Assembly (NCBI RefSeq): GCF_002795845.1
Contig: NZ_CP011797.1
Span: forward strand, 2,766,001 to 2,830,000
Direction: 5' to 3'
DNA length: 64,000 nucleotides
Source: Reinekea forsetii
GTDB taxonomy: Bacteria; Pseudomonadota; Gammaproteobacteria; Pseudomonadales; Natronospirillaceae
Positions within the stretch are counted from its first letter, which is position 1; each line of letters opens with the position of its first letter. The notes below the pieces were generated by a model. That model searched no databases. It was not told the origin of the DNA and saw only the letters and a list, made by a program, of their open reading frames with translations. Made by a program: the position numbers and the translations under genes. Of the stretch, positions 1 to 39,552 are shown in pieces.

Positions 1-183
1 CCGTCGATCGATCTCGCGCAGGCGTTTCTTGTTGTATTGGTAGTCGGCGTTTTCGCTGCGGTCGCCCAGACTGGCAGCCCAGGTCACTTTAAGAGTGACA
101 TCGGGTCGTTCGACTTTCCACAGCTGATGCAATTCCGCCTGCAATTGCACATGGCCGGCTCGGGTAATCAGTTTGGTACTCAT
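1..183 (-). CDS. greB: Transcription elongation factor GreB, N-terminal part
   Basis: GreB binds in the RNA polymerase secondary channel and rescues backtracked complexes by stimulating transcript cleavage. Only the first 61 codons are present; the gene runs off the left edge (the family is about 158 residues). The start is the ATG at 183, preceded by GAAGG eight bases away. The visible part is the N-terminal coiled-coil domain. It carries the stretch VTWAASLGDRSENADYQY, with the acidic residues used at the polymerase active site, and ends NKKRLREIDRR, which is diagnostic of GreB/GreA. The GreB-like spacing RPDVTLKVTWAA favours GreB over GreA. Confidence 0.93.
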   Translation of the reverse strand, partial: MSTKLITRAGHVQLQAELHQLWKVERPDVTLKVTWAASLGDRSENADYQYNKKRLREIDRR

Positions 184-436
184 GCTGGGACCTTCATTAA
201 TGCTTAGCTTTCGGAGCCATGGTACGGAACAATGACAGATGATGACGATTGATTCTGCCATTCCAGAGGGTGAGCGCAAGCTAAAACTGAATTTGACCAA
301 GGCTGCAACGCGTGAGGGGGTCTAACTAGGAAGGGGCATAGCGACCAATGTCGTCTTATTGTGTTAATGAGTAGGGGCTGCACCATCAATGAGTCGACCT
401 ATGCGAACTGCAATTGATGGAGTTTTCGCCCTGTTA

Positions 437-463
437 ATGGCCGCCTGGACTAACGACGGCCAT
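437..463 (-). terminator. Inverted repeat downstream of the giant repeat gene
   Basis: ATGGCCG at 437-443 pairs perfectly with CGGCCAT at 457-463, starting 12 bases past the stop codon of the minus-strand gene. There is no T-run after the stem, so this is not a classical intrinsic terminator; it may stabilise the 3' end. The remaining 184-436 gap shows no gene. Confidence 0.3.
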
Positions 464-474
464 ATAGGGTCAAC

Positions 475-3400
475 CTAGTCGCTTGGTTCGTTGACGAGTG
501 CTGGTGTCGCCAATGCATCTTCCGTTACAGGCGAATCGTCTTGGCCATCCCCAAGCCCCAAGAGCTCGGCCTGGGCCAAGGTATCAGCCTGCGTTAAAAT
601 CTTTGCCTCGGCCTGCGTCAGAATCTGGGCTTGTGCGAGCAGTTCCGCCTGGAACAGCGCTAGCGTCTCCGCTTGCGCCAGAATCTGTGCCTCGGCTTCG
701 GCCAACGATTTTTCTGCCTGGGCTAGCATATCCGCCTCCGCTAACGCGATCTCCGCTTGCGCCAGAGCTTCCTCTTCGGCCTGCGCCAGGGTCTCCGCCT
801 GCGCTAACAGCTCCGCCTGATCTTGGGCCTGCGTTTCAGCAGCTACCAATGCGTTTTCCGTCTGCGCCAACGTCTCAGCTTGTGATTCTGCCTGTGTCGC
901 TGCCGCCTCGTTCTGCGCCTGCGCCTGCGCCAACGCTTGCTCGGTCTGCGCCAATTTTTCAGCCTCAGCCAGTGCTAATGTCTTCGCGTCCGCCAGCGTC
1001 TCCGCATGCGTCAAGGCTTGAGCCTCGGCCTCGGCCTGCTCAGTCTTAGCCCGTGCCAGTGCCTGTTCTGCTTGGCCCTTATCCGCTTGGGCCAATGCCA
1101 AGGCCTGCTCCGCCTGCGTTAAAAGTTCAGCCTGCGCCAGCTTCTCTGGCTCAGTCTGCGCTTGGGACAGTGCCTGTTGCAATTGTGCCATCTCCGCCAG
1201 CGCCTGGGCCAGAGCCTGCTCCGCCTGGGCCAGTTTCTCTGTTTGAGCCTCGGCCAGGGCCTCGCTCTGGGCCAGAGCTTGCTCTGCTTGGGCTAAAATA
1301 TCTGCCTGGGCCAGTGCCAATTCCTCAGACTGCGCGAGCATTTCCGCTTGGGCCCTGGTCTCCGACTCGGCCAACGCCTTCTCCGACTCAGAAGCTGCTA
1401 GCACTTGTTCGGCCTCGGCTAAGGCTAGGGCCTCGGCCAAAGCTTGGGCTTCTGCGTCCGCCAATGCTTGCTCGGCCTGCGCCAAATTCTCCGCCTCGGC
1501 CCTGGCAAGCAGCTCCGCCTGGGCGAGAATTTCGGCCTGCGCCTGCGCCTGCGTTTCGGCTTCTGCTTGCGCTTCCACTAATGCATTTGCCTCCGCGAGT
1601 TCGCTCTCGACTTGGAGCAGCGTCTCCGCCTGTGTATAAGCCAGCGTCTCCGCCGCAATCAACGCCTGCTCGGCCTCTGCCAGGATCTCAGCTTGGGTTA
1701 CGGCTTGCGTCTCAGCCTCGGCCAGAATATCCGCCTGGGTTAAAGCCTGCGCCTGCGCCTGCGCCAAACTATTCTCGGCCAGCGCCAGCGTAAGGGCCTC
1801 AGTCTCCGACTGTGCCTGCGCCTGCGCCAATGCCTGCGTCTGCGTTTCCGCCAGCGACTTGGCCTCAACTAAGGCCTGCACCGTCTGGGCCAGTGTCTGC
1901 GCCTCGGCTAGGGCCAGCTTCTCAGCCTGGGCCTCCGACTGTAACTTGTCTGACTTCGCCAGAGACAGTGATCTCTCAACCTGCGCCAACGTTTCCGCTT
2001 CGGCCAGCACCTGTTCCGCCAGCGCGAGGATCTCTGCCTGCGCCTGCGCCAAGGTCTCCGCCTCGGCCAGGGCGAGCTTCTTCGCGTTAACCAACGCTAA
2101 TGTTTTCTCATCATTTAGCGTCTGCGCTTCGGCTAGTGTTGCGGTCCACTCTAACGACTGCGTATCAGCCAGCGCCTTCTCAGTCTGAGCCAGTGCCAGC
2201 GCCTCTTGAGCTATTACCAAAGCCTCCTCCGCCTGCGTCAAAACTTCTGCCTGCGCTATAATCTCCGCCTCAGCGTCAGCCAGTGCGCGTGCTTCTATCA
2301 CCGCCAGCGCCCGAGAATCTTCCTCTAGCGCTCGCGTCTTTGCATGGGCCTGAATCTTCGTTTCGGCTAACACCAACATTTCCGCCTGCGCTAAAATCTC
2401 ACTCTGGGCCTGCGCAAGAATTGCCGCCTGGCTGAGGGCAATTTCAGACTGCGTTACAATTTCCGCTTCTGCCAGAGTTAGCGTCTCGGCCTGGGTCAGC
2501 GCTCGCGCTTCCGACTGCGCCTGCGCAGCTTGGGCCCGCGTTAAAGCCTGTTCGGCTTGCGCCAATATCTCGGCCTGGACTTGAGTCTCCGTTTCGGCCT
2601 GCGCGAGAATATCGGCCTGCGCTAAAATCTCACTCTGGGCCAGCGCTAAAACGTCCGCCTGGGTCACAGCGTTCTGTGCCTGCGTTACAATCTCAGATTC
2701 TGCCCGAGATAGCGTCTCGGCCTGGGTCAGCGCTCGCGCTTCCGACTGCGACTGCGCAGCTTGGGCCCGCGTTAAAGCCTGTTCGGCTTGCGCCAATATC
2801 TCGGCCTGGACTTGAGTCTCCGTTTCGGCCTGCGCGAGAATATCGGCCTGCGCTAAAATCTCACTCTGGGCCAGCGCTAAAACGTCCGCCTGGGTCACAG
2901 CGTTCTGTGCCTGCGTTACAATCTCAGATTCTGCCCGAGATAGCGTCTCGGCCTGGGTCAGCGCTCGCGCTTCCGACTGCGCCTGCGCAGCTTGGGCCCG
3001 CGTTAAAGCCTGTTCGGCTTGCGCCAATATCTCGGCCTGGACTTGAGTCTCCGTTTCGGCCTGCGCGAGAATATCGGCCTGCGCTAAAATCTCACTCTGG
3101 GCCAGTGCTAAAACGTCCGCCTGGGTCACAGCGTTCTGTGCCTGCGTTACAATCTCAGATTCTGCCCGAGATAGCGTCTCGGCCTGGGTCAGCGCTCGCG
3201 CTTCCGACTGCGACTGCGCAGCTTGGGCCCGCGTTAAAGCCTGTTCGGCTTGCGCCAATATCTCGGCCTGGACTTGAGTCTCCGTTTCGGCCTGCGCGAG
3301 AATCTCGGCCTGCGCTGAAATCTCACTCTGGGCCAGCGCTAAAACGTCCGCCTGGGTCACAGCGTTCTGTGCCTGCGTTACAATCTCAGATTCTGCCCGA

Positions 3401-6400
3401 GATAGCGTCTCGGCCTGGGTCAGCGCTCGCGCTTCCGACTGCGACTGCGCAGCTTGGGCCCGCGTTAAAGCCTGTTCGGCTTGCGCCAATATCTCGGCCT
3501 GGACTTGAGTCTCCGTTTCGGCCTGCGCGAGAATCTCGGCCTGCGCTGAAATTTCGGCCTGAGCCAGCGTTAAAATTTCAGCTTGGGTGAGTGCGTTTTG
3601 TGCCTGCGTTACGATCTCAGCTTCTGCCAGCGTTAGCGTCTCGGCTTGAGCCACCACTCGGGCTTCCGCATTCGCCTGAGCAGTTTGGGCTAGCGTTAGG
3701 GCTTGCTCTGCTTGCGCGAATATCCTTGCCTGGGCTTGAATCTCGGCTTCGGCCAGAGCTAGAATTTCAGCCTGCGCGATGATCTCATCTTCGGCCAGTG
3801 TTAATATTTCAGCCTGTGCCAGTGCATCCTGAGCTTGAGTTACAATTTCCGCTTCTGCCAAGGTTAGCGTTGCTGCTTGAGTCAACACTCGGGCTTCCGC
3901 ATTCGCCTGCGCAGCTTGAGCAAGCGTTAGAGCTTGCTCGGCTTCGCTCAATAGCGCCGTTTCAGCCTGTTCAAGGGCCTCGGCTCGGACTTGCGCGACT
4001 TGGGCCCGCGTTACGGCTTGTTCTGCTTGCGCCAATCTCTCAGCCTGGGTCAGGGCATTCTGAGCCTGCGTTGCAATCTCTGCCTCAGCCAAGATTAGTG
4101 TCTCAGCCTGAGTCTGCGCGCGCGCCTCAGTCTGCGCTTGAGCTGCTTGGGCCAGGGTTAAGGCTTGTTCAGCCAGCGCCAATATGCCTGCCTGGGCTTG
4201 AGTCTCGATTTCGGCTAGCGCTAGAATTTCCGCCTGGGCTATAATTTCAGCTTCTGCCCGCCCTATAAATTCCGCCAGCACCAGAATCTCAGTTTCCGCT
4301 TGCTCGAGAGTTTCCGCCTGTGTCGCTGCTAACCTTTCAGCCTGAATTACGGCTAATGCCTGAGCCTGCGCCTGAGCCGTTTGCGCTTGCGTCAAGGCCT
4401 GTTGAGCCTGCGCCAAAATTTGCGCCTCGGTCAGCGCCTCGGTCTGAGCGTCGGCAAGGGCTTGCTGCGCCTGCGCTAGAATCTCCGCCTGCGCTAGAGT
4501 CTCCGCTTCGGCCAGGTTTAGAATTTCGGCCTGGGCCAGCTCTCTGTTCACCTGCGCCAGGATTTCAGTCTCGGCTTGTGCTAGAGATTCCGACTGCGCC
4601 AGAATTTGCGCCTCGGCGAGCGCAAGAATATCTGCTTGCGTTAGCGCCTGTTCCGCCTGTGCCAAAATTTTAGCTTGGGCCAGCGCCAGCGTCTCCGCTT
4701 CCACCAACGCCTGCTCTACCTGCGCCAGTATCTCAGCTTCAGCCTGAGCCAGGGACTCCGCTTGGGCTAATGCCCTCTCCGCCTGTGCGAGGATTTCCGC
4801 CTCCGCTAGGGCTAGATTTTCTACCTGCGCTGTTATAGCCGCTTGTGCCAAAATTTCAGCTTGAGCCGCGGTCTCGGCCTGTTCCAGCGCCAATGCTCTG
4901 GCCGCGCTCAACGCCTCTTCAGCCTGCGCTACTGTCTCCGCTTGCGTCTGCGCGAGCGCCTGCGCCTGCGCCATATTTGCCTGGGCTTGGGCCAAAATAT
5001 CGGCCTGTGCCAGGATCTCAGACTCGACTTGCGCCAGAGTCTCGGCCTGCGCTTGCATATCAGCCTGCGCCAATGCCAAAGTCTGTGCGTGCACCAATGC
5101 AGTTGCCTCAGCTCCAGCCAAGGCGTTCGCCTCGACTAACGCCAAACTATCCGTTTGGGCCAGAATCTCCGCCTGGGCCACCGCCAATAGCGCCAACTGG
5201 GACTCGGCCTCAGCCTCGGCTGACGTTAATGTCTCTGCTTGGGCCAAAATCTCCGCCAGCGCCGCTTCTAGTGCATCCGCCTGCGCCAAGGTTTCCGTTT
5301 GGTGCTCCTTTAAAGCTTGGGCATGCACTAGGGCCAGAGTTCGAGCTTGGCTTTGCGCAGCTGCCAGCGCCTGGTTTGCCAAGGCTAGCGTCACCCATTG
5401 CGATTGCGTCAGCGTATCCGCCTCTGCCTTCTCTGCTTGAGCCTGCGCCAGCGCTTGATCGGCTATGGCCAGAATCTCGGCCCCTGACTGTGCCAGCAGC
5501 TCTGCCTCTAACAGGGCCTGTGCGGCCTGCACGAGAAGTTCAGACTCTGCATCTGCCAAGCCCTGCTGTGCCAAAACGGTTGTCGCCAAGGCTTGCGCCA
5601 AAGCTTGCTCCGCTACCGCTTTTTCAGACTGCGCCTGAACCAACGCTTGCTCCGCAGAGGCTTTTTCGGACTGCGCCAAGGCTAGGGCTTGCTGCGCGAT
5701 AATCTTCTCCGATTGCGCCAGAGCCAATGCTTCATCAGCCAAGGCCTGAGCCAGCGCTTCGGCTGCCAAACGTGCTTGATCGGCCTGAACCTGAGCGAGC
5801 GCTTCCGCCTGAGCCTGGGCCAACGTTACCGCTAGACTCTCCGCCAGTGCTTGCTCCGCCAAGGCCTGCGCTTCTGCTAAAGCTTCTGCTTCAGCCAGCG
5901 CCAAGGCCTCAGCTTCTGCGAGGGCTTCCGTGCTCGCTTGGCCCATATAGCCGCTATAGGTGGCAATGCCGTTGTAGATGCCAATCTCGTTCACATCGAC
6001 GGCGCAATTCAGTCCGCCCGACTCAGATGTCACGGAGCCAATAGCAATGGCCGCAGTGGCCCATAAGTTCCCGCAAACGGCGGCTCCCGCTCCGGTGACC
6101 GCGCCATTAATAAAAGCAGTACCAATGAAGGATGACCCCGCACCCAGAGTCAGCGCACCACCTATATTCCAAATGACCACAGCACCACCGCTGCCAACGT
6201 TGATTATTTTAAATTCACTGCCTGCGGCCACGGTCAATGCGGAGCTAAGGTTAATAATCCAAAATTGAACCTGAGTTGAATTTTCAGCATCGAAGGTCAC
6301 AACCGAATCCGCAGCAACGGTAGCAGCAGTGCCCTGATAGACACCGGGCCGATAAACTGCTCCGCCCATAGCCACGGCGCCTAGTATTTCATTGGGGGTA

Positions 6401-29109: not shown

Positions 29110-31041
29110 TTATTCCTCATCTTTGCTGATTCGGCTCTTGCGCGCTATCGCGCCGCGCAACAGTTGACTAAATTCGGCTAATGGCATTACGCCTAAATCC
29201 TCACCTTCACGAGTTCGAACCGCAACGGTGCCGTTTTCTACTTCTTTGTCGCCCACAACCAGCAAATAGGGAACGCGCTGAATTGTGTGCTCGCGGATTT
29301 TAAAGCCGATCTTCTCATTTCTCAAGTCAGATCGTACTCTAAATCCTTCATTTTCAAGGTTTTTGGCAATTAATTGCACAGTTTCGGCCTGAGCGTCGGT
29401 AATATTACAAATCATTACCTGAGTTGGGGCCAACCAAGCTGGCATCGCGCCCGCATGCTGTTCGATTAAAATACCAATAAAGCGTTCAAAACTGCCGACA
29501 ATGGCCCGGTGTAACATCACCGGCGTCTGGCGTTCGCCATGCTCATCGACATATTGGGCGTCGAGACGACCCGGCATTGAAAAATCGACCTGGATGGTAC
29601 CACATTGCCAGAGCCGACCCAGACTGTCTTTCAGGGTAAATTCAATCTTTGGACCATAAAAGGCCCCTTCGCCGGGTAAATAGGCCCATTCTTTGCCCGT
29701 TGCGTTCAATGCTTCGGCGAGTGCGGCTTCAGATTTATCCCAAACCTCGTCGGAACCGACCCGTTGTTCCGGGCGAGTCGACAGTTTGAGGATAAACTCA
29801 TCATAGCCAAAGTCGTGATAAACCTCTTCCAGCATGTCGATGAACTTGGCCACCTCCGCCTGCACCTGATTTTCGGCGCAGAAGATGTGGGCATCGTCCT
29901 GCACAAAGCCCTTCACGCGCATAATGCCGTGCAGTGAGCCAGAAGACTCATCGCGGTGACAAGAACCAAATTCAGCCAAGCGCAACGGCAGATCGCGATA
30001 ACTCTTCAGACCCTGATTAAAGACCTGGATATGGCAGGGGCAGTTCATCGGCTTCACCGCGTTGTCACGCGATTCGCTGTGAGTGGTAAACATACTGTCT
30101 TTAAACTTATCCCAATGGCCGGAGCGTTCCCATAGGGAGCGATCGACGATCATCGGTGTCTTGATCTCTTGGTAACCATAGGCGTGCTGCTTCTGGCGCA
30201 TATACTGCTCGATCACCTGATAGATGGTCCAACCATTGGCATGCCAAAACACCATACCCGGGGCATCTTCCTGGAGATGGAACAGGTCAAGTTTTTTACC
30301 AATTTTACGATGATCGCGCTTCTCGGCTTCTTCGAGAAAGAACATATATTCTTTGAGCTGCTTTTTATCCGCCCAGGCGGTGCCATAAATACGCTGGAGC
30401 TGCTGATTTTTGCTGTCGCCACGCCAGTAAGCACCAGAGATGCGCATCAGCTTAAGGTGTTGACAGAATTTCATGTTCGGCACGTGCGGGCCGCGACACA
30501 TATCCACATATTCTTCGTGATGGTAGAGACCCGGACGATCATCGCGCGCGATGTTCTGTTCCAGTATCTCTTTCTTATAGGGTTCGTTGCGCGCATCGAA
30601 GGCGTCGAAGGCTTGCTGCCAACTGACGGTCTCTTTAACCACGGCATAATCGGTTTTAGCCAACTGCAGCATGCGCTTCTGGATGCTGTCCAGGTCGTCT
30701 TCGGTTAGGCGCTGTGCCATATCGATATCGTAATAAAAGCCGTTCTCGATCGTCGGCCCAATGGCCATCTTAACGTCGGGGTAAAGCTGCTTCAGGGCAT
30801 GGCCCAACAGATGTGCACAGGAATGACGAATGATCTCCAGACCGTCGTCATCCTTGGGGGTGATAATTTCTATCTTGGCATCCTGAGTCACCAGGTCACA
30901 GGCGTCGACACGGACACCGTCAATGCGGCCAGCTAGGGTGTTGCGGGCTAGACCGGGGCCAATCGCCTCGGCGATTTGCATAATGGAGACGGGTTGATCG
31001 AATTCGCGGGTGGAACCATCGGGCAAGGTAATAATAGGCAT
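29110..31041 (-). CDS. thrS: Threonyl-tRNA synthetase
   Basis: A 643-residue class II synthetase. The order is a TGS domain (1-60), an editing domain with [10 protein letters not shown] (about 73-82), then the catalytic core with the zinc Cys in MNCPCHI, further zinc His residues downstream, and motif 2 ([20 protein letters not shown]). A C-terminal anticodon-binding domain follows ([14 protein letters not shown]). AAGGAGAACAGC precedes the ATG. It is first gene of the operon with infC, which begins three bases after its stop. Confidence 0.98.
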
Positions 31042-31267: not shown

Positions 31268-31906
31268 TTAGAGCTTGGGTTGCTTGTTGTGCTCCACCGG
31301 CACATCTTCCCAGCCGGTGATCATGGCCTTGGTAAACTGCAAGACGGTTGCGCCGGTGGTAATCAGATACAGGTGGGCGATTAAAAATAGCAGCAGCAAA
31401 AAGGCCGCTAGGACATGAACCACAGCAACTTGCTCCAAGGTTAAGCCCAGCTCGACTAGACCCCAGGCAGCCCAGTCATTGTAAAACAGATAGAGCAGGC
31501 CACTGGCCCAGATCAGCGGGATCATCATCACCTTGAGCAGCAGATAGGCAATGCGTTGCAGCGGATTGTGCTTGGCCTTGGCACTGGCATGGAACGGATG
31601 CGGCGCACCGGTAAAGATACCCTGCATATAATAAAGAATTTGCTGGGTGAGTCCCTTCCAGGTGGGAATATAGTGTTTGTATTCACCGGTGGTTAGATGC
31701 CAAAAGATGGTAAAGACCCAAAGCACAATCAGGATCCAGGCGGAATATACATGGATGTCGATCGCGGTGTGGAAACCAAACAGGTTGTAACTGCCATGGA
31801 TTTCAAAACCGGTAATGGCCATGAGGATAATTAACACCGCCTGCGACCAATGCCAAAAGCGTTCAAACCATTTAAACAGATAGATGCGTTCGGTTATCTC
31901 AGTCAT
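31268..31906 (-). CDS. Cytochrome b/b6-type membrane subunit of the multiheme cytochrome operon
   Basis: A 212-residue inner-membrane protein with four hydrophobic helices (about 20-38, 50-70, 113-133 and 150-175). His residues are placed for bis-His heme b (HWSQ in helix 1, HVYSAW, HVLAAF and HLYLIT). It resembles the b-type subunits that pass electrons between quinol and periplasmic multiheme cytochromes. The ATG at 31906 follows GGAGGAAACAGCT and overlaps the stop of the nine-heme cytochrome gene (ATGA). The likely role is quinol oxidation feeding the two upstream cytochromes. Confidence 0.88.
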   Translation of the reverse strand: MTEITERIYLFKWFERFWHWSQAVLIILMAITGFEIHGSYNLFGFHTAIDIHVYSAWILIVLWVFTIFWHLTTGEYKHYIPTWKGLTQQILYYMQGIFTGAPHPFHASAKAKHNPLQRIAYLLLKVMMIPLIWASGLLYLFYNDWAAWGLVELGLTLEQVAVVHVLAAFLLLLFLIAHLYLITTGATVLQFTKAMITGWEDVPVEHNKQPKL

Positions 31907-33525
31907 AGCTGTTTCCTCCGCCAGCCGAAATAGGCTCTCAGGGTGCCGTGACCGGCCACACCCAGAAAGGTCACGAGCAGCGCCAACACGCCGTAACGAT
32001 CGAGCCAAGCATGTTGCCGCCGACCCGGAATGTAGAGCCCCTCGACCTCATCCAATAGACCGTCAGATGTTGCGCCATGGCAGGCGTTACAGCTTAAGGC
32101 CTGTTCTTTGGGTGCCACCGTGTGATTGAGCGGCCAGGACATTTGGCTTTCGGTGAAATCGAAATTGCCAGAGAATTCAATACCCGCCGCCTTGGCACCG
32201 GCCTTGAGCGACTTTGGCCAGTTGTAGCCATTCCAGTAGGCATCTCTACTGCGGCCCGCCAAGTTCATCGGCATCAGCTGCTGGCTCTGGGTATCGTAGG
32301 GCAGGATTGAGGTGATTTGATGGAATGGAAAGATCTTCGAGATGCCATCCTGCGACGACCCCTGGATCTCATTAATCAGCGTCACCCCGTCGCTATTCAC
32401 CTCGGCGCCGGGCGCTTTAAAGACCATCGCTCCATTAAACCAGCGATAGACCGGCTTTAGGTTTTCACCGTACTCCATATGCCCCTTTTGGCTGGCATAG
32501 CTCACCCGACCGGCGCTATTGACCTCAACCTTGGGCCGCTTACTGCGGTTCAGGTCGCCGGCCGTGGACCAATCCCATTTGGTTTTGGTGGCAATGCCAC
32601 CGCGGGCATAGGTGGGAATATGGCAGGTCTGACAGGCGATAACATCGGTGTGATCGTTGAGCTTATCGTCCTGCATCGGCCGGTCGCCATGGCACGACAC
32701 GCAGGTAGCACGTGCACCGGTGAGCGCACTGACGCCCTGGTCATCGCCGACACTGTGCGCCTGATAACGACTGCCAAACAACTGATGATCAATGCTCTGA
32801 TGACAGGAACTGCAGGTGAAGTCTGCGCCGTCGGCACTCATATGGACATCAACGGCAAAATCCGCGTCGAACAACGAGCTATCCAGATCGCCATGTTTGG
32901 CACCATCGGCGCCGCCATCGTAGAAGTGACAACTGCCGCAGGTGGCCGTCGAGGTGGCGCCAGTCGACTGAGCCATGGCCCTAAGCGACAGGGTGTATTT
33001 TTCGCCCTGCGTCTTGACCCGTTGCTTCATCGCATCGGCCCCGTCGTCATGGCACATGGCACATTCGGCCCCGTCTTGATGAAAGCGGAAATAGAAGTAT
33101 TCGCCGCTGGTGTCGTGGCAGGCCAAACAATCGACCGCCGCCGGCGCAATGCCATCGGTGATTTTTTTGGCCAAGCCAAAGCCAATATGGCAACTGCCAC
33201 AGGCCTGGCTATTGGACGCGATATTGGGGTGGTAGGCGTTAATGACATTCAGCTTGCCATATTGTTCACCATTTTCCAGAGCGATGTCCCACTGCCAATG
33301 AAGAGTCTTATGCAGCTGATCTTCGGCCACATTATGACAGCCAACACAGGCGGCATTGATCTGTTCGATGTCGCTAAAGGGGACTTGAAGGGCGTCGAAT
33401 TGGCTGTGATCTGCCGTTGGTGCTGCCACAACAGGGACAGCCGAAAACAAGCCAATAAACAACAGACCGACAAAACAGAACCGCCGGCCCTTTCGCGCCG
33501 GCAGTTCAGAATAGTGTAACGTCAT
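31903..33525 (-). CDS. Tetrathionate reductase family multiheme c-type cytochrome (nine CxxCH)
   Basis: 540 residues. A signal peptide (about 12-35, VGLLFIGLFSAVPVVAA) is followed by nine CxxCH sites: CVGCH (60-64), CGSCH, CLACH, CAMCH, CGSCH, CSSCH, CVSCH, CQTCH and CNACH. The pattern and length fit the octaheme tetrathionate reductase (OTR) family, whose Shewanella member reduces tetrathionate, nitrite and hydroxylamine in vitro; here there is one extra site. A hydrophobic helix near the C-terminus (YGVLALLVTFLGVAGHG) followed by RRK suggests membrane anchoring. It is middle gene of a three-gene operon. Physiological substrate unknown. Confidence 0.87.
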   Translation of the reverse strand: MTLHYSELPARKGRRFCFVGLLFIGLFSAVPVVAAPTADHSQFDALQVPFSDIEQINAACVGCHNVAEDQLHKTLHWQWDIALENGEQYGKLNVINAYHPNIASNSQACGSCHIGFGLAKKITDGIAPAAVDCLACHDTSGEYFYFRFHQDGAECAMCHDDGADAMKQRVKTQGEKYTLSLRAMAQSTGATSTATCGSCHFYDGGADGAKHGDLDSSLFDADFAVDVHMSADGADFTCSSCHQSIDHQLFGSRYQAHSVGDDQGVSALTGARATCVSCHGDRPMQDDKLNDHTDVIACQTCHIPTYARGGIATKTKWDWSTAGDLNRSKRPKVEVNSAGRVSYASQKGHMEYGENLKPVYRWFNGAMVFKAPGAEVNSDGVTLINEIQGSSQDGISKIFPFHQITSILPYDTQSQQLMPMNLAGRSRDAYWNGYNWPKSLKAGAKAAGIEFSGNFDFTESQMSWPLNHTVAPKEQALSCNACHGATSDGLLDEVEGLYIPGRRQHAWLDRYGVLALLVTFLGVAGHGTLRAYFGWRRKQL

Positions 33526-33558
33526 ACAGACCTATGCCTTTTAGTCGAGGCGCGCGGT

Positions 33559-34668
33559 TTAATCGGGGCGCACAGTAGCCGGGACCGGCACCTTTTCACC
33601 CAGGTTCTGCACGCTGTCATTCAATAGCTGCAGCATATACTGGGGATTGTGGGTATAGCCGCCCGGATCCTTAGCAGCAAACTGATAGTTATAGGCCGCT
33701 CGCGCTAAACGCGGTGTCCATTGTTGGTAGCCATTGGCTCGGACCGCCTCATCTTCATCGACCTGGCCATTGCCGTTGGTATCAGCAAAAAAGTATGGGT
33801 AGGCATGGCCATCGTATGCCAGCGGGGCGTTCACTATTTTCTCACTGTAGGTTTGCATGGCCGCATAGAGAATGGCATGCAGTCCTTCGATTTCCTGCTT
33901 GATGCCCTCGTTGCTATCGCCGTCGGCATCGAAGTCGCCTGTGCTGCTGCGGATAAAGGCAAAATCATCTATCGACGTTACCTCTTCATGACATTCGGCA
34001 CAGAACAGCGGCTCAACCTTGGTCGTGTGCGGATTGTGGCAATCATTGCATTGGGTCGCGTAGTCATCGTGAAAATAAAACCCGAGATAATCCTCACCGG
34101 CGTATTCGTAACCGCCCCCGGCCTCAGATCCAAAGCGGCTTGCCGCCGCGGCGGCATAATGCACATTCAGGAACTTCAAAGCCGCATCGACCGTATCATC
34201 GCCGACACCGGCCTTAGCGATCATGGCATTAATGGATGCACCCGACTCTCTACCCTGATGACAATCCATACAGCGGGCATCGGCCTCCTCACGCGCAACG
34301 ACCATACCGGACGGAAAGGTCACCGCGGTCATCTGGCCGGTGACCTTATTGTGGCAAGCAACGCAGGCAACGCCCTCTTCAATGGGTGCCGTCTTTTCGA
34401 CCGAGCCCACAGCTGAGCCGTCGGCACCGATAAAGTCTAGGTGACCTGTGGTGGAGTGGCATGCCGCACAGCGTTGATCAACTGCCCCGTCGTCGTTCCA
34501 ATGGGCAAAGGGCTCTGAAGTAAAATCGGCATGGGGAGAACTTAACCAGGCGTCGTAGAAGGGAATTTCAATCTTACGCTCTTCGGCGGTGGCTAAATCA
34601 CTGGCGAGTAATGCAGCGAAACTAAGGGCTAGTAAAGCAACGAGATAGGTCGATCGACAAGGCGTCAT
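33559..34668 (-). CDS. Pentaheme c-type cytochrome, periplasmic
   Basis: 369 residues with a signal peptide (about 6-28). Five CxxCH heme sites are present: CAACH, CVACH, CMDCH, CNDCH and CAECH. The CHNPH-type sequence after the fourth site is common in cytochrome c3/c554-like proteins. A DTNGNGQVDEDEA segment near residue 305 looks like an EF-hand calcium loop. It is first gene of the operon, 33 bp before the nine-heme cytochrome. Likely an electron-transfer partner or donor; no enzyme activity can be assigned. Confidence 0.85.
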   Translation of the reverse strand: MTPCRSTYLVALLALSFAALLASDLATAEERKIEIPFYDAWLSSPHADFTSEPFAHWNDDGAVDQRCAACHSTTGHLDFIGADGSAVGSVEKTAPIEEGVACVACHNKVTGQMTAVTFPSGMVVAREEADARCMDCHQGRESGASINAMIAKAGVGDDTVDAALKFLNVHYAAAAASRFGSEAGGGYEYAGEDYLGFYFHDDYATQCNDCHNPHTTKVEPLFCAECHEEVTSIDDFAFIRSSTGDFDADGDSNEGIKQEIEGLHAILYAAMQTYSEKIVNAPLAYDGHAYPYFFADTNGNGQVDEDEAVRANGYQQWTPRLARAAYNYQFAAKDPGGYTHNPQYMLQLLNDSVQNLGEKVPVPATVRPD

Positions 34669-34763
34669 AAGACTGGCTCCAGTATTTTCATTATTTGCAA
34701 AGTCTCGGTAAATTCACTACCTAATTATTTTAGTGCATTACGAGATAAGGCCTAATTAAATAC

Positions 34764-34777
34764 CTGATTGAGATCAA
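34764..34777 (-). promoter_or_regulatory. FNR-type binding site upstream of the cytochrome operon
   Basis: On the minus strand TTGATCTCAATCAG matches the FNR consensus TTGATnnnnATCAA at 9 of 10 defined positions. It lies about 96 bp before the first cytochrome gene. TAAAAT at 34732-34727 is a possible -10 box. Anaerobic activation of the operon is the natural reading. The rest of the 34669-35032 gap is AT-rich and shows no gene. Confidence 0.75.
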
Positions 34778-35032: not shown

Positions 35033-37447
35033 ATGCATTATTCAATCAAAATTAGGCGCTTATTAGCAGGCCTTGTTGTCCTGCTAACGCTTGCTTTCTC
35101 CTCCTGTTCTTTTTTACCTACCCAGGGCGATTACTCAGCAGAAAGCACTTCCGGCGTGCCGAAGCTATACCTCTGGCAAAACAAAAATTCTGATTCTAAT
35201 AATGAAGTCACCCTAAAACTGGTGGTCAGGATTGGTAGCCTGCAAGAAACCGATAGCCAATTGGGCTATGCACACTTTGTCGAGCACATGGCCTTCAATG
35301 GCAGTGCCAAGTTTCCAGACGGAGCCCTCCAGACACGACTCAAAGAGCTCGGTCTGAGCATTGGTGCCCATTCGAATGCCGTCACCACATTTGACCGAAC
35401 GGTCTATACGCTAGATCTGAAATCCGCCAATACAGACAAGCTTGCCGGTGCCGTCGAGATTTTAAGCGAGTGGGTCAGTGCGATCGAATTCAGCGAGATC
35501 GGGGTTAAGCAGGAAAAGGACGTTTTGCTTCAAGAGTTGGGTCGCGCAGCCGACGCGGAAACTGTCACGGCGCAGGCATTTCAAGGTCGTTACGCCGGCA
35601 CGCAGCAGCTTAATCGGAAACCTATAGGGACAGCAGAGAGCATACAGAGCGCGACGCCTGCCTTGCTGACAGCGTTCTACAAAAAATGGTACGTCGCCGA
35701 AAATATGGCCATTATTATCGCAGGCGATATCAACACTGACTTTACGCAAGGGATTTTTGATCAATACTTTCAGCCTAACAGCACCAGCACCTATATTGAG
35801 CCAACAGCCTACCCTATCAACTTCAGTAACTCTGCCAATTATTTGCTATTTTCAGACCAGTTCACCCAGACCAATAGTGTCGGGCTAAACTTTATCACCG
35901 CAATCGAACCCATTAGCCAAACAGACGACTACCTTCCGATGCTGGCATGGCAAGCAGGCTTGGATATCTGGTTAGATAGAGTCGATGAATCGGCCCATAG
36001 ACAAAATTTGGAATTGTCCGCCGGCTATGATTGGGAACACCCCGATACCACACAACGCATTGTCACGTTAAGGGCCGACGTACCAGACGGTAAATTCCAA
36101 CAGGTTATTAGCCTACTTGAGACTGAACGACTCTCACTGATCCGCAACGGCATCAGCCAATTCGAATTAGATCAGTTGCGCACTGCCTGGCTGGAACATG
36201 AGCAGGCTCAACAGGATTCTGCCGACCACCTTGCCAATCAACTGGAGCTGTTGTTTCTCGATGGTTGGCCAGTCAGAGGTCAGAAAAAATGGCTCAAGGC
36301 ACTCAAAAGAGAGTTGCCAAACTTGACCACCGATGATGTGCAAAACGCCTTCAAGCAGGTGACCGATACACAGCACCGTATTCGCATACTAACTAAACCC
36401 GCAGCGGCGGCGCCGAGCGAAGAGCAGGTGAGAGAATGGCTCACGAGCGTGAGTTTAGCGACGGCTGTAGTACCAAACCAAGGCGATGAATTACCCCAGT
36501 TGGACTTAGAGATCGCACCCAAACCATCTTATGGCGTGAGCTCCAAAAAAGAATATGATAATGAGGTTACCGAATGGTCACTCGGCAACGGCATGACGAT
36601 CCGGCATCGGTACGATAATAATTATGAGGGCGTTGAATTTAATTTGGCCGGCCTGGGTGGACTCGCGGCCGTCAGCCCGGCTGAAACTCCCAGTGCTCGC
36701 CATGCCACGACCGTCCTGAACCGGGCGGGCTTACGCAACCTAGACGCATTCGAGCTTGAGCAATGGCTTAACGAAAACGATATGTCGATATTTCCAAGCT
36801 ACACCTTGTCCAGCCGAGGCTTGTACGGTTACTCGCCCTCGGAGCGTGCCATGGATTGGTTGAGGTTATTGCATATCGCTTTAACAGAGGGGAGATTCCC
36901 GGCGGCGACCGTTCAAGCGGTGCAGCAGGCACAGGTTACGCTTCGTTTTCAACTGCCCAGAGGCGCCATCCAAGTTGCTCAGAATGAATGGCATCCGCTG
37001 TTAAATAACTGGCTCAGCGAGGCCCTATTTCAAAATCTGCGCGAGGAACTGGGCTTAGTCTACGCCATCAATAACTGGTTAAAGGCTGACTCTCTGGATT
37101 GGCCAGTTTACAGCTTGGTTATCGCCTCCGATGTCGCACCGGAACAGGTTGAAGACTATGTTGCTGCAGTGCAGTCGCTACTCGACGCTCTGATCCAACA
37201 GCCCCCAGACAGCGCAACGATCCAAGGTTGGATGCAAACAATCCATGCCGACTCAGCCACCTTTATAGAGTCCACTGAGAATCAAGCACTGCTACTGGCA
37301 CGCGCCGAGGAGTTTGAACGGTCAGTCAGCGATGTGATCAAGCCTTTTGATCCAGATACAACGCTAACCGGCCAGGATTTAGCAGACCTATTAGCCCAGT
37401 TTAGAAACGACCCGGCTATTCTGGTGCAGTATATATGGTTGCCTTGA
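35033..37447 (+). CDS. M16 family zinc metallopeptidase, exported
   Basis: 804 residues. The N-terminal membrane segment (LLAGLVVLLTLAFSSC) ends in a possible lipobox Cys at 25, so it may be a lipoprotein. The M16 inverted zinc motif HFVEH is at 81-85, with the third ligand Glu161 in VKQEKDVLLQE, the normal spacing. A second, inactive M16 half follows (about 500-800, including LFQNLREELGLVYAI). M16 enzymes degrade peptides inside a closed chamber; the periplasmic or outer-membrane site here is inferred. AAGGAAAGCC precedes the ATG. Monocistronic. Confidence 0.92.
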   Translation: MHYSIKIRRLLAGLVVLLTLAFSSCSFLPTQGDYSAESTSGVPKLYLWQNKNSDSNNEVTLKLVVRIGSLQETDSQLGYAHFVEHMAFNGSAKFPDGALQTRLKELGLSIGAHSNAVTTFDRTVYTLDLKSANTDKLAGAVEILSEWVSAIEFSEIGVKQEKDVLLQELGRAADAETVTAQAFQGRYAGTQQLNRKPIGTAESIQSATPALLTAFYKKWYVAENMAIIIAGDINTDFTQGIFDQYFQPNSTSTYIEPTAYPINFSNSANYLLFSDQFTQTNSVGLNFITAIEPISQTDDYLPMLAWQAGLDIWLDRVDESAHRQNLELSAGYDWEHPDTTQRIVTLRADVPDGKFQQVISLLETERLSLIRNGISQFELDQLRTAWLEHEQAQQDSADHLANQLELLFLDGWPVRGQKKWLKALKRELPNLTTDDVQNAFKQVTDTQHRIRILTKPAAAAPSEEQVREWLTSVSLATAVVPNQGDELPQLDLEIAPKPSYGVSSKKEYDNEVTEWSLGNGMTIRHRYDNNYEGVEFNLAGLGGLAAVSPAETPSARHATTVLNRAGLRNLDAFELEQWLNENDMSIFPSYTLSSRGLYGYSPSERAMDWLRLLHIALTEGRFPAATVQAVQQAQVTLRFQLPRGAIQVAQNEWHPLLNNWLSEALFQNLREELGLVYAINNWLKADSLDWPVYSLVIASDVAPEQVEDYVAAVQSLLDALIQQPPDSATIQGWMQTIHADSATFIESTENQALLLARAEEFERSVSDVIKPFDPDTTLTGQDLADLLAQFRNDPAILVQYIWLP

Positions 37448-38766: not shown

Positions 38767-38809
38767 CAAAAGGTCGCGATAAATAGCGCGAGTAACGTCG
38801 GGTCTTAAT

Positions 38810-39475
38810 TGGTAGCGGCGGTGCGACGATTCGCGGCCGGAAGGTGCCGATGAGTCGCGGTAGCTTTTCTCGACCCATAAGAAAAAAACCGCTAACCTTT
38901 CGGCTAGCGGTTTTTTAAATTGGTAGCGGCGGTGCGACGATTCGCGGCCGGAAGGTACCAATGAGTCGCAGTAACTTTTCTCAACCCATAAGAAAAAACC
39001 CGACGTTAGTTACCTAACGTCGGGTTTTAATTGGTAGCGGCGGTGCGACGATTCGCGGCCGGAAGGTGCCGATGAGTCGCGGTAGCTTTTCTCGACCCAT
39101 AAGAAAAAAACCGCTAACCTTTCGGCTAGCGGTTTTTTAAATTGGTAGCGGCGGTGCGACGATTCGCGGCCGGAAGGTGCCGATGAGTCGCGGTAGCTTT
39201 TCTCGACCCATAAGAAAAAAACCGCTAACCTTTCGGCTAGCGGTTTTTTAAATTGGTAGCGGCGGTGCGACGATTCGCGGCCGGAAGGTACCAATGAGTC
39301 GCAGTAACTTTTCTCGACCCATAAGAAAAAACCCGACGTTAGTTACCTAACGTCGGGTCTTAATTGGTAGCGGCGGTGCGACGATTCGCGGCCGGAAGGT
39401 GCCGATGAGTCGCGGTAGCTTTTCTCGACCCATAAGAAAAAACCCGACGTTAGTTACCTAACGTCGGGTCTTAAT
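38810..39475 (-). repeat. Six tandem 111-bp repeats downstream of tRNA-fMet, each with an intrinsic terminator
   Basis: GGTAGCGGCGG begins copies at 38811, 38922, 39033, 39144, 39255 and 39366, exactly 111 bp apart. The tRNA CCA end (39477) is in the same register. In the transcribed (minus) direction each copy has a terminator hairpin with a GNRA tetraloop plus T-run, a spacer, then an about 55-nt body ending CCGCTACCA, the last nine bases of the tRNA. There are two body types and two terminator types, T1 (CCGCTAGCC-GAAA) and T2 (CCCGACGTTAG-GTAA), in mixed combinations. The body can fold GCGAC/GTCGC and CGGC/GCCG. The design resembles the 178-bp tyrT repeats of E. coli, but the sequence is different. 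Confidence 0.92.
39437..39468 (-). terminator. First terminator after tRNA-fMet (T2 type)
   Basis: CCCGACGTTAG pairs with CTAACGTCGGG (11 bp) around a GTAA loop, then TTTTTT. It starts eight bases after the tRNA CCA end. Equivalent hairpins lie in each of the downstream repeats. Confidence 0.9.

Positions 39476-39552
<77 letters not shown>

Follow-up and report, generated by a model that had tools for sequence, protein, structure and literature searches.

The cytochrome operon

The stretch of DNA considered here, a 64,000-nucleotide window of the Reinekea forsetii genome (NZ_CP011797.1, positions 2,766,001 to 2,830,000; the genome is a single contig of 3.66 Mb), carries on its minus strand a tight three-gene operon. 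A pentaheme c-type cytochrome (33559-34668, 369 amino acids, five CxxCH motifs) is followed by a cytochrome of the OTR family with nine CxxCH motifs (31903-33525, 540 amino acids) and by a cytochrome b of the Ni_hydr_CYTB type (31268-31906, 212 amino acids; PF01292 at 76.5 bits, cutoff 30.1). The first two genes are separated by 33 nucleotides, and the ATG of the cytochrome b gene overlaps the OTR stop codon in the sequence ATGA (31903-31906). Because of this overlap, 31906 is taken as the cytochrome b start; the start at 32008 given in the list of open reading frames (ORFs) is a mechanical extension. An initial annotation of this DNA had already described the operon and counted nine heme sites in the OTR protein, and both descriptions hold. 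The nine-heme OTR is a conserved variant of a known family, for which no description was found in the parts of the open-access literature that were searched. The branch to which it belongs comprises two operon types, one with the pentaheme and one with an ArrA-like molybdoenzyme and an iron-sulfur protein. It is these two types that are new here; the pairing of OTR with cytochrome b was already known.

Membership in the OTR family

By sequence and by predicted fold, the nine-CxxCH protein belongs to the OTR family, as the initial annotation had proposed. It matches TIGR04315 at 466.8 bits (cutoff 375) over model positions 1-440 of 440, and PF11783 is present. A search of PDB sequences returned the Shewanella oneidensis OTR (1SP3) as the sole match at an expect value (E) of at most 0.01 (E 3.9e-82). 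The same structure was the best Foldseek match of the AlphaFold model (E 4.2e-35, template modelling score 0.80 on the target), the runner-up among the 53 matches having an E of 1.3. The CxxCH motifs lie at residues 60, 109, 133, 155, 196, 238, 275, 298 and 479, and eight of the nine align with 1SP3 or with eight-heme relatives.

The catalytic-heme lysine is retained as well. K210 (32896-32898, minus strand) aligns with K153 of 1SP3, a position obtained by counting that agrees with the usual number of this lysine, and the residue is lysine in 85/85 aligned rows. According to a published account, the ligand lysine of the OTR catalytic heme does not form part of a CxxCK motif (PMC12285233). Besides a histidine in the membrane anchor, seven histidines outside the motifs (H40, H76, H211, H228, H247, H292 and H468) are invariant in a 40-row alignment, a number that would provide the ligands required for seven bis-histidine hemes. 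Two of the 14 nine-heme rows, L023 and L030, have glutamine instead of H211 and read KQGD; neither belongs to the 40-row alignment. Thus the Reinekea protein shares with the Shewanella OTR its fold, eight aligned heme motifs and the aligned catalytic-heme lysine. It differs in having a ninth motif, inserted between motifs 3 and 4 where 1SP3 has no insert, and a C-terminal membrane helix with a cytochrome b partner, whereas the Shewanella OTR is a soluble periplasmic protein. Among plasmid records there are five OTR relatives, every one of them below 60% identity.

A conserved ninth CxxCH motif

The initial annotation had proposed an alignment to OTR as the means of finding the extra heme. In an alignment to 1SP3 and eight-heme relatives, the additional motif, C155-H159, falls between motifs 3 and 4 of OTR, within an HQxxxxCxxCH loop (33049-33081, minus strand) that provides the heme-binding C155, C158 and H159 of the putative ninth site and a candidate distal ligand, H149. 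When the best 80 of 396 public relatives were compared, the loop was present in 12 loci and eight motifs were read in the other 68. In all 12, the loop cysteine sits 22 residues past the cysteine of motif 3. The frame is broken in one of them, L033, where one motif has the form CQTYH.

Together with the window and a further locus (L012), these loci give 14 nine-heme rows. Over residues 144-188, a stretch of 45, the sole invariants in 14/14 rows are H149, Q150, C155, C158 and H159, while identity between the two nine-heme subgroups is 38-51% (L033 left out). Such a pattern would be expected of a bound heme that has a distal histidine close by. Heme attachment here is therefore inferred, and the ninth heme is probably bis-histidine ligated, by H149 and H159. 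The idea that the ninth CxxCH is structural or free of heme would fit a loop that is modelled without confidence, yet it is very improbable given that CxxCH and HQ are all that is held constant and that the spacing from motif 3 is fixed. Judging from the alignments, the ninth site is conserved rather than accidental and marks a small branch of the OTR family.

In an 85-row tree built without the loop columns, all 14 nine-heme rows form one side of a single branch with a Shimodaira-Hasegawa-like approximate likelihood ratio (SH-aLRT) of 91, and the rows closest to the window OTR are from Reinekea. This topology favours, without proving, a single origin of the nine-heme form. It is also a rare form: among genomes of the order, 6/390 contain a match to a strict DNA pattern of the loop, and among those of the phylum 2/398, with no match for the backward control. 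The two phylum matches are the window's own genome and G523, the latter probably being the same locus as L026. TIGR04315 is exceeded in 45/398 genomes of the phylum, and the 30 best-scoring loci from that search (L107-L136) have eight motifs in 30/30.

Membrane anchor and cytochrome b

The C-terminal membrane helix noted in the initial annotation is present in the AlphaFold model as residues 506-539 (31909-32010, minus strand), which include H526 and R530. It is modelled with confidence; predicted local distance difference test (pLDDT) block means are 93, 97 and 90 over residues 511-540. A crude hydropathy scan detected the helix in 65 of 75 parsed OTR ORFs; five loci missed by its motif filter (L023, L030, L033, L084 and L086) were read separately. 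The helix histidine H526 is found in 14/14 nine-heme rows and in 70/71 eight-heme rows. A cytochrome b related to that of the window lies directly downstream of OTR in 78/80 loci, and in the remaining two (L035 and L047) OTR stops at a contig edge. Among the eight-heme loci it is present in 66/68, and the two without it stop at a contig edge. The cytochrome b histidines H19, H52, H164 and H178, each conserved in 75 to 79 of the 79 rows aligned, are candidate heme b ligands.

The strongest sign of joint function of the two proteins is a fusion, L002 (96-2417, minus strand), in which an eight-heme OTR, its C-terminal helix and the cytochrome b occupy a single frame of 773 codons from stop to stop. 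The pairing itself has been published for Thermosulfurimonas dismutans, where TDIS_1882/1883 is likewise described as an OTR with a nearby cytochrome b (PMC4911364). Among better known enzymes the arrangement recalls hydrogenase and formate dehydrogenase. Some of their subunits are likewise extracytoplasmic redox proteins that rest on a four-helix cytochrome b by a single helix at the C-terminus; the difference is that OTR uses multiple hemes where they use an iron-sulfur chain.

The initial annotation had read the operon as a quinol-to-periplasm chain with cytochrome b, and as a reading of the genes this is probably right. It had also implied that the anchor goes with the ninth heme. This link is rejected, since the tail, its conserved histidine and the cytochrome b gene downstream are all found in eight-heme relatives too; anchor and cytochrome b are not special to the nine-heme variant. 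The same comparison bears on the proposal that the ninth heme is an electron-entry site from cytochrome b. An adjoining cytochrome b and an anchored OTR speak for it. However, most OTR-cytochrome b loci manage with eight hemes and also keep H526, so that electrons would enter without a ninth heme. Electron entry is consequently the less likely reading, and we consider it quite unlikely.

Two operon types in the nine-heme branch

In the first operon type, the pentaheme cytochrome is encoded upstream of OTR, as found in 5/12 nine-heme loci (L017-L020 and L033) in addition to the window and L012. Its N-terminus is a signal-peptide-like stretch, with a hydrophobic helix at residues 6-24 in a poor model (mean pLDDT 45). 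Five CxxCH motifs are present in 6/6 aligned homologues, and no NCBIfam model scores over its cutoff. The gene is rare: of 369 genomes of the class, 2 have it, and one of these is the window's own. The C-terminal third contains no heme motifs and has an EF-hand-like stretch, DTNGNGQVDEDE. The DxDxDG and DxNxNGxxDxxE stretches in this part resemble calcium loops; no Pfam EF-hand match was obtained at E 0.1. A pentaheme homologue is also encoded at 5401-6564 of L102, from a genome with no TIGR04315 match.

The second type, seen in 6/12 nine-heme loci (L021, L023, L026, L029, L030 and L060), has genes for an ArrA-like molybdoenzyme and an ArrB-like iron-sulfur protein downstream of those for nine-heme OTR and cytochrome b. 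By profile search, the next genes in L029 encode a TorD/DmsD-like chaperone and a ferredoxin-like protein. All six ArrA-like proteins match NF041714 at 1108-1133 bits, below its cutoff of 1600, and the one from L029 matches 6CZ7 at 994 bits. An RGRY motif is found in 6/6. In the literature, (R/K)GRY is given as the mark of ArrA and XGRGWG as that of ArxA (PMC6549141); on the strength of the RGRY motif, an ArxA identity was set aside in favor of ArrA-like. The closest known systems to the sister-group enzyme are the respiratory arsenate reductase ArrAB (6CZ7) and ArxAB. It resembles ArrAB in the score of the L029 protein against 6CZ7 and in its motif, and differs in falling below the NF041714 cutoff and in being joined to a nine-heme OTR and cytochrome b. 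This operon suggests that the OTR-cytochrome b pair can serve an ArrA-like enzyme, an arrangement for which no description was found in the searched portions of the open-access literature, and it is a more surprising find than the nine-heme variant itself.

Beside the operon in L060, on the opposite strand (7-3793, minus), lie genes for a PhnD-type binding protein, a histidine kinase and a sigma-54 response regulator, a trio that, by analogy, resembles arxXSR. AioX, ArxX and ArrX are described as arsenic oxyanion sensors (PMC5908839).

The 68 eight-heme OTR-cytochrome b loci differ from both types. Neither a pentaheme nor an ArrA-like/iron-sulfur partner was found in any of them within the flanks available, several of which are short.

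A proposed port for partner proteins

It thus appears that the ninth site goes with extra partner genes, and for this reason the ninth heme is read as a port to a partner. In the proposed mechanism, the cytochrome b would oxidize quinol and pass the electrons to the OTR body, which would be held on the cytochrome b by its C-terminal helix. From there, electrons would reach the lysine-ligated catalytic heme or leave through the ninth heme, a second port exchanging electrons with a partner. In Reinekea and its relatives this partner would be the soluble pentaheme, which may act as an electron reservoir or carrier; in the sister group it would be the iron-sulfur subunit of the ArrA-like molybdoenzyme. 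The reading as a whole, a periplasmic membrane-anchored OTR reductase in nine-heme form, with the ninth heme as partner port and with nitrite or hydroxylamine reduction under FNR in Reinekea, has in our estimate an even chance of being correct.

Several observations weigh against this reading. A nine-heme locus, L036, has no linked partner, the pentaheme of that genome being on another contig, and in G407 a pentaheme is encoded but no OTR. Conversely, the eight-heme locus L032 (2410-4573) has an eight-heme cytochrome and a NapC-type (NapC/NirT) cytochrome downstream, which shows that an OTR with eight hemes can have extra partners as well. The nine-heme state and its partners rest on one evolutionary origin and hence on one independent pair, which leaves no power for a statistical proof of the link. 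The SH-aLRT of the nine-heme branch is below the starred level, in a tree that came from a quick search and has some long branches. Finally, loop residues 149-174 have a pLDDT below 50, so that the ninth heme cannot be placed; the AlphaFold structure was rejected as an arbiter of this heme, and no heme geometry is claimed.

The sister operons raise the alternative that the nine-heme protein is a pure electron conduit, a quinol dehydrogenase module rather than a reductase, serving the ArrA-like enzyme or, behind the pentaheme, some further acceptor. The invariable presence of ArrA-like and ArrB-like genes after OTR and cytochrome b in that group is consistent with this, as are the chaperone and ferredoxin genes of L029. 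Moreover, no NrfD-like subunit was noticed among the ORFs of the ArrA-type loci, although no profile search aimed at NrfD was made. Retention of the catalytic lysine in 14/14 nine-heme rows argues in the other direction, and the conduit seems a somewhat unlikely account.

A reading of the partner port that takes in the history of the branch would be that the ninth heme was acquired once and that an anchored pair of OTR and cytochrome b thereby became a branching quinol dehydrogenase, feeding either the pentaheme or an ArrAB-like molybdoenzyme. We regard this as possible, if doubtful. If true, the ArrAB-like lineage would have a complex for the respiration of arsenic oxyanions in which a nine-heme OTR provides the wiring. 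A nine-heme branch with partner genes of its own offers a testable handle on the physiological role of OTR. Should the ninth heme be a partner port, it would show multiheme enzymes gaining an electron outlet by a local change in a loop.

Regulation and substrate

An FNR-like box, TTGATCTCAATCAG, is read toward the operon at 34764-34777 (minus strand), 109 nucleotides ahead of the pentaheme ATG, and matches 9/10 consensus positions. The initial annotation had called this box strong and had linked the operon to FNR. The first description goes too far for the box by itself, as the window has three FNR-like sites against 2.28 expected and window-wide significance is rejected. FNR control itself is plausible. 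Upstream of 78 of the 81 operons (three with fewer than 200 upstream bases were dropped), sites of at least 9/10 precede 17/78, against a mean of 1.0 and a maximum of 5 in 100 dinucleotide shuffles, the related loci not being independent. This points to a real enrichment across the OTR family. The window genome also encodes FNR (325 bits, curated cutoff 228). A genome-wide count of FNR sites was not used, since the base bias of its backward control differs.

The nitrogen-oxide setting of the genome points to a substrate. Two molybdopterin oxidoreductases were found, NapA (1557 bits) and a NasA/formate-dehydrogenase-like protein that is below every cutoff shown; NrfA gave no match in the genome. 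Nap could thus make periplasmic nitrite that no NrfA would take up. In this setting, nitrite or hydroxylamine is the most likely substrate of the Reinekea OTR, and its reduction would be the likeliest work of the system. That the operon is instead a tetrathionate-reducing chain is suggested by the family name and by a published account in which OTR reduces tetrathionate (PMC4484225). It is unlikely, however, in a genome that has Nap and lacks NrfA.

Surroundings of the operon

On the same strand, the cytochrome b gene is followed by an ORF of 643 amino acids (29110-31041), which we take to be thrS-like. On the opposite strand an unrelated ORF begins at 35033. Promoter-like sites number six against a shuffle mean of 3.7 and terminator-like sites nine against 4.1; none were used. 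In the genome of L036, an eight-heme OTR (L103) is followed by an ORF that is SoxY-like by eye, and soxY adjoining otr has been described in lucinid symbionts (PMC11237559). Further along the window, a tandem array with a unit of about 111 nucleotides and 6.2 copies extends from 38793 to 39484.

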